From positions 1,213,849-1,277,848 of the forward strand of contig KN832556.1 in NCBI GenBank assembly GCA_000827205.1: a stretch of 64,000 nt of DNA, in the 5' to 3' direction. A program made the position numbers and the translations under genes. Source of the stretch: Plicaturopsis crispa FD-325 SS-3 (Eukaryota > Basidiomycota > Agaricomycetes > Amylocorticiales > Amylocorticiaceae). Below the pieces are notes generated by a model. The model was not told the DNA's origin and made no database searches. It saw only the letters and a program-made list of their open reading frames with translations. This document shows positions 58,957 through 63,656 of this stretch, in pieces. Every line of letters begins with the position of its first letter. The stretch's first letter is position 1.

Positions 58957-60399
58957 ATGTTGCACCAGCTCGTCCTCGCGGGCGCTCTGGTCGCCTTCGC
59001 GGCGGCAGACACGACGACCACCATCAACGCCCAGTCAAATTGGGGAACCTGGGACGGTTGGGGTGTCTCCCTGGCCTGGTGGGCCAAGGCCTTCGGCAAC
59101 CGCGACGACCTAGCCGACGTTTTCTTCACCCTCGATACCACGAACCTCAACTCGGTCTCTCTTCCAGGCCTTGGCTTCAACATTGCACGGTACAACGCCG
59201 GCGCCTCCTCCTCTAACACCTACAACGGCTCCTCCATGGTCAAAAGCCCCGACATGGAGGCGTCCCGCGAAATGGACACCTTCTGGCACGACTGGGCCAG
59301 CACTGATCCGTCTTCTTCGAGCTGGGACTGGTCCGTCGACGCCAACCAGCGCGCGATGTTGACTAAGGCCGCCTCCCGGGGCGCGAACCACCTGGAGCTG
59401 TTCTCCAACTCGCCCCCGTGGTGGATGTTATACAACCACAACCCGTCCGGATCGGATGACGGCTCTTCCGACAACCTCCAGTCATGGAACTACGACGCGC
59501 ACGCAGAGTATCTCGCCTCCGTGGCGCAGTACGCCAAGGAGCACTGGGGGATCACCTTTGTGTCTGTCGAGCCATTCAACGAGCCGTCTGCGGACTGGTG
59601 GAAGGGCACGACAGGCACGCAGGAGGGATGTCACTTCGACATCTCGACTATGGCGTCTGTGATTCCAAACGTGCGGTCCGAGCTCGACAGCCGGGGGCTG
59701 ACAAGCACTGTCGTCGCCGCGTCGGACGAGAACACGTACGACGAGGCCGTCACGACGTTCAAGGGGCTCGGGTCGTCCGCCATCGCTAAGATTGGCAGGG
59801 TGAACGTGCATGGGTACCAGCAGGGGGACGGTAGCCGTGATGGGCTGTACAGCCTTGCGTCCGCGGCGGGCCTATCGATCTGGAACAGCGAGTACGGGGA
59901 GAGCGACGCCACGGGGTCGGAGCTGGTGAGCAACCTCATCCTCGACTTCAGGTGGCTGCACCCCACCGGCTGGGTCTACTGGCAAGCCATCGACGGCAGC
60001 GGATGGGGCCTGGTGGACGGGAACAACGACGCCGCGACGGTGACCACGCCGGGGCAGAAGTACTTCTGTCTTGCGCAGTTCACGCGGCATATCAGGGAGG
60101 GCATGAGGATCTTGGATGGCGGTGCGGATAACGTCGTGGCGGCGTATGATGCTGCAGAAAAGAAGCTGGTGATCGTGGCAGTCAACTGGGGCGACGAGCA
60201 GTATCTGAACTTTGACTTGTCGGGCTTCAGCACCCCGGGCAAGGACGGTCAGGCGATCCCGCGGTGGAACACTCAGATTAGCAGCGGCGATCGGTACGTC
60301 TCGCACACTACTGATACGACGCAGAGCGGGACCAAGTTCTGGTCGAACTTTGCCAAGAACGAGGTGCAAACTTTCGAGGTGGCCAATGTGGTTGTATAG
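58957..60399 (+). CDS. Secreted GH30 (subfamily 5-like) endo-beta-1,6-galactanase
   Basis: A single uninterrupted 480-codon frame. The signal peptide is MLHQLVLAGALVAFAAA. The mature start, DTTTTINAQSNWGTWDGWGV then SLAWWAKAFGNRDDLADVFF, is typical of fungal endo-beta-1,6-galactanases. The acid/base Glu is residue 209 in VEPFNEPSADWW and the nucleophile Glu is residue 312 in IWNSEYGES. GWVYWQAIDGSGWGLVDGNN and a C-terminal beta-sandwich (KKLVIVAVNWGDEQYLNFDL) complete the GH30 layout. It would cut beta-1,6-galactan side chains of arabinogalactan proteins outside the cell. The lack of introns and the high GC are unlike its intron-rich neighbours, and no premature break is seen. Confidence 0.9.
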   Translation: MLHQLVLAGALVAFAAADTTTTINAQSNWGTWDGWGVSLAWWAKAFGNRDDLADVFFTLDTTNLNSVSLPGLGFNIARYNAGASSSNTYNGSSMVKSPDMEASREMDTFWHDWASTDPSSSSWDWSVDANQRAMLTKAASRGANHLELFSNSPPWWMLYNHNPSGSDDGSSDNLQSWNYDAHAEYLASVAQYAKEHWGITFVSVEPFNEPSADWWKGTTGTQEGCHFDISTMASVIPNVRSELDSRGLTSTVVAASDENTYDEAVTTFKGLGSSAIAKIGRVNVHGYQQGDGSRDGLYSLASAAGLSIWNSEYGESDATGSELVSNLILDFRWLHPTGWVYWQAIDGSGWGLVDGNNDAATVTTPGQKYFCLAQFTRHIREGMRILDGGADNVVAAYDAAEKKLVIVAVNWGDEQYLNFDLSGFSTPGKDGQAIPRWNTQISSGDRYVSHTTDTTQSGTKFWSNFAKNEVQTFEVANVVV

Positions 60400-62158: not shown

Positions 62159-62540
62159 GTTTCAGCAGTTGAATAGGCGCTAGGCATGGGCGTTTCAAGG
62201 TCAAGTTGAAGTTGGGGAAATCCAGGTCAAGCGAGTCCGCGGTGTAGTACTAGCCCGGAGCGGGACTCGGATACAGTGTTTGGCTCCGCCGGGCCCCCCG
62301 GATCCAAACAACGCCTACGAGATGTGTAAGCACCATTCTAGGCTTCCCCCCTGTCGTTCGTATTTCGTTTTGCGGCGTCCGCAAAATGGCTCTGCGCGCC
62401 GCAGTTCGCACCCGATCGCCCTCAAATAATCTTGCATCGCTCGGGATGAGATGCACGCACAACTGTTGGCGCGGCACCCGCCATCGCTTCCCATCAAATC
62501 CAGGCACAAACAGAGATTTGGTCCGTGCATCTTCCGCCCG

Positions 62541-62547
62541 TATAAAA
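62541..62547 (+). promoter_or_regulatory. TATA box of the U2 snRNA gene
   Basis: TATAAAA about 30 bp upstream of the inferred U2 5' end. Confidence 0.55.
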
Positions 62548-62569: not shown

Positions 62570-62842
62570 TTCTCTACCACTCTGGCCTATTGGCTTAGAT
62601 CAAGTGTAGTATCTGTTCTTAATAGGTACGCGTTCTAAGCCAAAAGACGGGCGTTCGAGCCCGTTTGAAGGAGTTCTATGCTAACCGCTGTTTTCTTTGT
62701 TTTTGCAGTTTAACCACTATTATGGAGGCACCGCCTCCATTCTTGGTTATCTTATTTTTGCCGCCCTTGCTCCCTGTCCTCTGCTTGCACGACGGGGACG
62801 TGATGACCTTGCCGCTGCACTACCGGCTTGCGTCGTCGGGGG
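62570..62842 (+). ncRNA. U2 spliceosomal snRNA, interrupted by an intron
   Basis: The 5' domain contains GGCTTAGATCAAGTGTAGTA (62592-62611) and TCTGTTCTT, the near-invariant U2 segment whose GTAGTA pairs with intron branch sites. Just before it is stem-loop I (GGCC-TATT-GGCT). After GTTCTTAATAG the homology stops at a donor (gtacgc, 62626) and resumes after tttttgcag (62708). Spliced, the RNA has AATAG-TTTAACCA-CTATT, a proper stem-loop IIa, then stem IIb GGAGGC-ACC-GCCTCC (62724-62738), an Sm site ATTTTTG (62754-62760), and a loop-IV-like GCCG-CTGCACTAC-CGGC (62811-62827) matching the U2A'/U2B'' site. Mature length is about 190 nt, normal for U2. The 3' end is approximate. Confidence 0.82.
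62626..62708 (+). other. mRNA-type intron inside the U2 snRNA gene
   Basis: 83 nt, GT-AG, with donor GTACGC, a branch-site match TGCTAAC (62679-62685) 23 nt before the acceptor, a pyrimidine tract, and acceptor TTTTTGCAG. Removal restores stem-loop IIa exactly. A chance tRNA B-box-like GTTCGAG lies within it. Confidence 0.78.
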
Positions 62843-63656
62843 ATCTCCCTTCTTTTCTTTGCTGCGCGCGTCATTCCTGTCATTCGACCTGGAAGAAACG
62901 CGTAGCAAATGAAGTTAGGGTGTCCTGTTGTGCGCATGTCGTTCCTCTGTCTGTTAGCCGCCAGTGCGACAACGTATGGGATATATTCTGTGAGTGTATA
63001 ACTTACTATGGATACGTTATGTACAGTCGGTACGCAGGGGCTGACCATGACCTTTCTAATGGTACAGCATAATACATATCCTTTGACGGTGTAGCCTGAC
63101 TACGTCCCTGGGACCATCTGTACCGTCGCCGTTGCCTTCGGATACAGGTGTATCTCTCACAGATGTCGGCCCACCGCCGTGCTGGCCCGTTGCAGGTTCA
63201 CCGTCGGAGTGGACTCGAATGCCATGTCGCACCAGCCTCTTGCGGATGTTATTCAGTACTTGGTCTCGCTAGCCCCGTCGTGCATCCATGACGCCTCCAA
63301 TTTTTTATGTCAAATTTTCGATATATCAGTATACTGAGAAGCATATGCATGGCCGTCGCGCGGTGCGTACGACATATTACACTTCATCTAAGCCAAGGGA
63401 CCACAGTCTTGCTAAGTCGCCTCCTCATGTTGAGTAACAAATGCAAATCACTTACTACTTACTGGTATTAGGAGCATGGGAGGGTTGTGCGCAGGCAAGG
63501 GCAAGTACCTAGAATCGGCGAGAATCCTGAGTCCTGCAGCAGGACAGATGCGACATAGTGCAAATATTATAATGAGCCGTACAACAAAACTCCATGTCCG
63601 TGCAGAGAATGACCGAAACGAAACAATTGCAATACAGCGAAAGAAAATAAAAACAC
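62843..63656. other. Intergenic, no gene seen
   Basis: About 810 bases after U2. No repeat, tRNA or protein gene recognised. The end near 63450-63650 is AT-rich and probably the 3' UTR of the edge gene. Confidence 0.45.

Follow-up and report, generated by a model that had tools for sequence, protein, structure and literature searches.

A U2 snRNA gene family of Plicaturopsis crispa split by an mRNA-type intron inside stem IIa

Can a spliceosomal RNA be encoded by a gene that the spliceosome itself has to splice? The question is raised by a U2 snRNA gene in a 64,000-nucleotide stretch of Plicaturopsis crispa DNA (the window, meaning the whole stretch that was analysed), which a first-pass annotation made from the sequence alone had described as interrupted by a GT-AG segment within stem-loop IIa.

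The split gene and its copies in the genome

On the plus strand of the window (62574-62845), the unspliced sequence scored 90.2 bits with the Rfam U2 profile (RF00004), whose gathering threshold is 46 (E = 1.4e-16 for the window as a whole), and the match covered the whole model with one long insertion. In loop IIa, the alignment has 90 nt where the model has 7 positions, a surplus of 83 nucleotides. Counted from the first base of the match, the intron lies between nt 52 and 53 of U2, and joining of the exons rebuilds a 6-bp stem IIa (UAAUAG/CUAUUA) with the loop UUUAACCA. The split gene was thus borne out, with coordinates that had been correct to within a few bases (Table 1); GTAGTA, IIb, the Sm site and stem-loop IV, all claimed to be present, were found in the window copy, and the proposed re-creation of stem IIa and its loop by joining was confirmed. 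The interpretation of the locus as a U2 gene split by an mRNA-type intron is supported.

Table 1. Features of the U2 locus in the window and locations of the broken U2 copies.
Feature	Position	Strand	Basis or remark
Upstream element TGGTCCGTGC	62519-62528	+	common to U1, U2 and U4 genes of the genome
TATA box TATAAAA, some 30 bp upstream of U2	62541-62547	+	TATAAA aligned in 8/8 copies
U2 exon 1 (nt 1-52, ends AATAG)	62574-62625	+	sequence and Rfam alignment
Stem I, within exon 1	inside 62574-62625	+	
Branch-site recognition GTAGTA, in exon 1	62606-62611	+	
Stem IIa, 5' half, in exon 1	62620-62625	+	
mRNA-type GT-AG intron, 83 nt, GTACGC...TGCAG	62626-62708	+	site common to 8/8 U2 copies found
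Intron element TCTAAGCCAAAAG, complementary to U2 nt 14-26 (stem I / U2-U6 helix I region)	62634-62646	+	
Intron hairpin ACGGGC-GUUCGA-GCCCGU, holds B-box-like GTTCGAGCC	62647-62664	+	
Branch-site-like CTAAC, branch A 62684, then pyrimidine tract	62681-62685	+	sequence
U2 exon 2, starts TTTAACCACTATTATGG	62709-62845 (3' end approximate)	+	Rfam alignment, pair analysis
Stem IIa, 3' half, in exon 2 after the loop	62717-62722	+	
Sm site ATTTTTG, in exon 2	62754-62760	+	
IIb, IIc partner, stems III and IV, all in exon 2	within 62709-62845	+	
3'-flanking hairpin, 52 nt	62858-62909	+	conserved in 8/8 U2 copies, covariation
Broken U2 loci	L034 (G000:C8:519000-523500) and L036/L035 (G000:C4)		

A search of the genome (33.2 Mb in 49 contigs, window included) with the Rfam U2 profile gave 8 matches, 6 above and 2 below the cut-off. 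The two sub-threshold matches were 5' fragments, and their 3' parts were recovered by a search with exon 2, which yielded 9 matches at 8 loci, one locus being in two pieces. The copies comprise six intact ones (C3win, the window copy, and C12, C2a, C2b, C2c and C9) and two broken by insertions (C4x and C8x); these counts are lower bounds, because 46 of 257 first-look candidates were scored and several C4 stretches run into N. The intron was found at the identical site in all eight, and since the interruption falls at the same place in every copy found, that of the window gene is beyond chance. No intronless joined junction was detected on either strand of the 33.2-Mb genome with a 30-nt pattern allowing up to 3 mismatches. 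An intronless U2 gene elsewhere, which the annotation had named as the case that would speak against its reading, came to light in none of the Rfam, exon-2 and joined-junction searches.

The two broken copies show features of their own. Both are interrupted at the same base, right after GTAGTAT, and the first 38 bases of the inserts are identical, although identity between the upstream flanks is only about 80%. Further U2 5' ends occur within the inserts, three in C8 and two in C4 (at most 1 mismatch). The shared break point and inserts may point to insertion or conversion directed to this site. Exon 2 of the C8 copy holds another insert, about 220 bp long, beside the Sm site (L034:3110-3340), flanked by the repeat ATCTTAT in the manner of a target-site duplication. 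In the broken C4 copy, a 373-bp inverted repeat, 99.5% identical (G000:C4 784613-784985 and 842896-843268), brackets about 58 kb with N at both ends, perhaps as the result of an assembly gap or an inversion.

Splice signals, joined RNA and flanking elements

Between the six intact copies, pairwise identity averaged 94.6% for exon 1, 94.8% for exon 2 (first 134 nt) and 59.3% (range 36.6-91.6%) for the intron, whose length varied from 64 to 83 nt over the eight copies. All eight introns carry AG/GTNNG (the slash marking the border) at the 5' splice site and CAG at the 3' splice site, and a branch-site-like CT[AGT]A[AC] is located 16-24 nt from the 3' splice site in every one of them. The branch site, described as textbook in the first-pass annotation, holds up as CTAAC in the window copy, with the branch A 24 nt from the intron end; the stricter CTRAC form occurs in six of the eight introns and is absent from C2a (CTTAC) and C2c (CTGAA). 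A GT61-like gene in the window contains about four introns of about 53-83 nt (tblastn with relatives, read by eye), which start with GTGAGC, GTAAGT or GTGCGT and have CTGAC- or CTAAA-like branch sites, and because these match in length and signals, the introns of U2 seem typical of the organism. The named relatives of the GT61-like protein are agaricomycetes. Judged by its signals and spacing, the U2 insert would qualify as a spliceosomal (mRNA-type) intron.

The six spliced sequences were well preserved as RNA: 99.1% of 222 pair cells were standard, and GUAGUA, the Sm site and stems I, IIa, IIb, III and IV were all intact. In stem IIa, pair 48:65 reads U-A in C2c and A-U in the other five copies, and this double change speaks for joined exons because its partners sit in different exons, one on either side of the intron. 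Another pair, 118:139 in stem III, was C-G in four copies and U-A in two. The covariation score together with the share of paired cells of spliced U2 was reached by 10 of 500 shuffles, the number of pairs changed on both sides was matched by 52 of 500, and the number of pair types by 310 of 500; with six sequences, these controls are only suggestive.

Seven of the eight U2 copies are preceded by a TATA box and, some 55 bp upstream of the gene, by the element TGGTCCGTGC; C2c carries TGGCCCGTGC. The pattern TGGTCCGTGC-N5..30-TATA gave 18 matches in the genome at 16 distinct sites, compared with 1 for the reversed control; by sequence, 7 of the sites belong to U2, 2 to U4 and 3 to U1, and the other 4 are without a recognised snRNA. 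The snRNA genes fall into two promoter classes, with U1, U2 and U4 carrying TGGTCCGTGC plus TATA and U5 siding with U6. The U5 and U6 genes (L009-L014, L017-L019) have a common upstream element around CAAAATGCA.GACT and no TATA in the usual place.

Downstream of U2, a hairpin was 94% paired (of 168 cells in eight copies). Changes on both sides were seen in 8 of its 21 pairs, a number equalled by 4 of 500 shuffles, and its covariation score of 0.359 (0.201 when shuffled) was reached by none of 500; the score was at most 0.136 when the partner strand was slid, and pair types were not above those of shuffles (446 of 500). The tetraloop was AGTC or AGTT in four copies and ATTC, ACTC, ACTC and CGTT in the rest. 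RNase III of the Rnt1/Pac1 type acts on a long irregular stem just 3' of an snRNA, capped in the Rnt1 case by an AGNN-type tetraloop, and the U2 hairpin would probably serve as a 3' processing signal for an enzyme of this kind.

An intron element complementary to stem I and the readings it allows

The 27-nt intron core AAGCCAAAAGGCGGGCGTTCGAGCCCG (up to 3 mismatches) occurred at 6 places in the genome, every one inside a U2 intron, and membership of an introner (mobile intron) family was rejected on these matches; C2a and C9 gave no match because their introns have diverged too far from the core. The first half of the core is complementary to U2 nt 14-27, the 3' arm of stem I and the region that meets U6. 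The longest Watson-Crick helix between intron and exon 1 was located at the stem I element in all eight copies. Its length was reached by 3 (C3win), 42 (C12), 3 (C2b), 1400 (C2a), 0 (C9), 233 (C2c), 20 (C8x) and 0 (C4x) of 2000 shuffles, so that it stands out in six copies and is not significant in C2a and C2c; these tests are not independent, since the copies are homologous. With G-U pairs allowed, the corresponding counts were 249, 6, 218, 1565, 13, 1599, 0 and 72 of 2000, and the helix stands out in four copies, with C3win, C2b, C2a and C2c not significant. No comparable signal was obtained between intron and exon 2, where 108 to 500 of 500 shuffles reached the length. RNAduplex energies of exon 1 with the intron in six copies were reached by 71, 20, 27, 108, 113 and 722 of 1000 shuffles, signals that are weak and less clear than those from helix length and from pairing probabilities. 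RNAalifold applied to exon 1 plus intron returned a penalising covariation term, and no covariation supporting the pairing of element and stem I was found among the U2 copies, of which C2c, C3win and C2a have mismatches in the element.

Fold prediction for the precursor was carried out with 100 shuffled introns per copy and the first 54 nt of the window exon 2 for all copies. The predicted probability of stem I was 0.00 in C3win, C12, C2b and C9, compared with means of 0.78-0.86 for shuffled introns; it was 0.70 against 0.90 in C2a and 0.18 against 0.37 in C2c, neither of which is unusual. After splicing, stem I was predicted at 0.97-1.00 in all six intact copies. Stem IIc was predicted at 0.92-1.00 in the precursor and at about 0.9 with shuffled introns too, and IIc is likewise the predicted preference of spliced U2 free of protein. 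Neither 5' splice-site pairing nor formation of IIc in the precursor is special to the U2 introns, because shuffled introns are predicted to give similar strength. That the intron element operates as a functional folding switch is possible, though the odds lean somewhat against it.

Several other readings of the interruption and of the element were weighed. All the U2 copies found might have decayed, with U2 expressed from an intronless gene absent from the assembly, and both the N runs in the assembly and the two broken copies would fit such a case; in six copies, however, the promoter elements, the stems, the Sm site and the 3' hairpin have all been retained and compensatory changes are seen, and dead genes would not keep splice signals, so we attach hardly any credence to it. 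Expansion segments occur in some fungal snRNAs, and the segment could accordingly be a loop retained in mature U2 and never spliced. This is equally hard to credit, because length (64-83 nt) and sequence are free to vary while GT, a G at +5, a branch-like motif and CAG are kept. The conserved intron hairpin could instead be a tRNA-type B box, a TFIIIC site that drives or marks transcription of U2 by Pol III: GTTCRANNC is present in seven of the eight U2 introns, compared with 9 matches on the plus strand and 11 on the minus strand of the entire 64-kb window, and B boxes are placed in Schizosaccharomyces U6 introns by the title of Frendewey 1990. However, the consensus is not found in every copy, being absent from the C9 intron. 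The longest T runs in the introns are 4 to 7 and the Sm site has T5, lengths that should stop Pol III. The U2 promoter is moreover common to U1 and U4 whereas the U6 genes have a different upstream element, and we regard a Pol III role as very improbable.

More serious is the possibility that the intron is real and spliced and that its complementarity to stem I is a functionless relic, left by an inverted copy of the U2 5' end, by reverse splicing or by gene conversion. The element reads as the reverse complement of the U2 5' end, its pairing lacks compensatory changes, and homologous copies would inherit one ancestral match. On the other hand, the introns of the six intact copies now share 37-92% identity (mean 59%), and even so AGCCA..AG has stayed unchanged, as few other columns of the intron have; the introns also open predicted stem I in four of six copies, which shuffled introns do not. 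We put this relic explanation at a little short of an even chance. The main reading, of a functional multi-copy U2 family in which a single ancestral spliceosomal intron at nt 52/53 is fixed in every copy found, is given a probability of roughly 0.9.

On this main reading, we infer from the sequence that the U2 genes are transcribed and spliced. Pol II would transcribe through exon 1, intron and exon 2, and the 3' end of the precursor would be cut at the downstream hairpin. The existing spliceosome, including mature U2, would then excise the intron and so create stem IIa, the element held by SF3B. Up to that point the precursor would have no stem IIa but could still form stem IIc, both strands of which are in exon 2, and the intron element complementary to nt 14-27 could hold stem I open. 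In human U2, SF3B proteins favour IIa over IIc, U2 free of protein adopts IIc, and the 5' region can alternate between lower stem I and the branchpoint-interacting stem-loop (PMC8516221). The unspliced precursor, in which the two halves of stem IIa are parted by the intron, should accordingly be unable to adopt the form bound by SF3B, and splicing by existing spliceosomes would make it competent.

Since a spliceosome containing mature U2 would remove the intron and thereby create stem IIa, production of U2 would depend on U2. This self-dependence follows from the gene structure if splicing occurs, and the folding switch is what we infer in addition; the antisense element may tighten the dependence. 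The intron might even act as a safety catch: with its antisense to stem I and the U2/U6 helix I region it would prevent stem I and the branchpoint-interacting stem-loop, and by its position stem IIa, from forming, and would so bar unspliced U2 from spliceosomes until splicing frees the RNA and gives it its functional fold, a proposal that we hold to be unlikely. If it were true, U2 would set its own level through a loop that depends on itself, and once excised the intron could also target U2 in trans. With no intronless U2 copy found, the spliceosome would have to mature an RNA essential to itself by splicing within the hairpin bound by SF3B, and P. crispa would offer a natural system for the self-dependence of an snRNA and for the exclusion of precursors from spliceosomes by refolding.

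As precedents, the first-pass annotation had pointed to introns in Schizosaccharomyces U6 and in Rhodotorula snRNA genes; citations bear out the U6 intron and that in U2 of Rhodotorula hasegawae. The R. hasegawae U2 intron is reported to be a GT-AG intron about 60 nt long and just downstream of the branch-site recognition domain, and this basidiomycete reportedly has introns in other snRNA genes as well. The P. crispa intron is likewise of the mRNA type, in U2 and near the branch-site recognition region, if the R. hasegawae position is as reported; by comparison with what is reported for that species, it lies in stem IIa, is present in all eight copies found and is seen only in U2. The element complementary to stem I also sets it apart. 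For R. hasegawae, the mRNA-type intron in the U2 snRNA gene is given in the title of Takahashi et al. 1993 (cited in PMC2586383), and for Schizosaccharomyces, the U6 intron is cited to Tani and Ohshima 1989 and to Frendewey et al. 1990, whose title names the B boxes in it. As in Schizosaccharomyces U6, a spliceosomal intron with a B-box-like sequence interrupts a spliceosomal RNA; in contrast to that case, the intron is in U2, the six above-cut-off U6 genes are without an intron-sized insertion, and the promoter type suggests Pol II for P. crispa U2. Fungal U3 snoRNA genes carry mRNA-type introns in the 5' region, are multi-copy and are broadly spread in Basidiomycota, and Canzler et al. 2017 (PMC5832005) state that, among small structured RNAs, frequent interruption by an intron is known for U3 and U6 alone. 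P. crispa U2 resembles U3 in being structured, small and multi-copy and in having its mRNA-type intron towards the 5' end, but U2 belongs to the spliceosome whereas U3 stands outside it, and hence has no self-dependence. To our knowledge, the open literature searched does not describe a U2 intron that lies inside stem IIa, is present in all copies found and has an antisense match to stem I.

Other spliceosomal RNA genes and neighbouring observations

In the Rfam search of the genome, the above-cut-off matches to U6 (six), U5 (three) and U4 (two) fit their models without an intron-sized insertion. Three further U6 matches fell below the cut-off, two of which are halves of one copy some 300 nt apart (G000:C7:1134597-1135024; L015, L016). 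This is a broken copy and not one with a GT-AG intron, because there is no GT at the break and ACGGAG replaces ACAGAG. Rfam searches of the genome and of the promoter-found loci did not recognise U1 genes; three were found through the promoter and recognised by eye from the 5' end ATACTTACCT and the Sm-like AATATTTT, with no obvious intron. The U1, U4, U5 and U6 genes thus look intronless. U3 was not found by Rfam in a search whose control gave no match anywhere either, and a weak U3-like match of 24 bits was seen in L051. This locus, which has a promoter of the U1/U2/U4 type, is followed by TTAGGG-like repeats, and just 3' of all three U1 genes (L043, L058, L059) lies a conserved CCTAACCCTAA that resembles one and a half telomere repeats.

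The U2 core had no match in viral contigs. In genome contigs it was found in four stretches (L030-L033) in three MAG records, giving four U2 matches with no intron at the nt 52/53 site, and a fifth occurrence (L032 769-792, minus strand) is only a fragment. The MAGs are bacterial and the U2 eukaryotic; two of the records also contain U1 and one case (L030) has histone stem-loops. These stretches are evidently stray eukaryote DNA, that is, contamination, and they are uninformative on mushrooms because they are probably not fungal (histone stem-loops in L030). Comparison of stem IIc with the stray U2 of L030/L032, made by eye, showed three positions (58-60 with 88-90) changed on both sides.

Upstream of U2, the window contains an uninterrupted GH30 endo-beta-1,6-galactanase-like gene (58957-60399, plus strand), whose protein has its best named match in Plicaturopsis crispa at 85% identity. 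Among the best 120 of 1648 matches, the named proteins are mostly from ascomycetes, together with Plicaturopsis, Mycena, Favolaschia and a chytrid, and the gene is a candidate for horizontal transfer.
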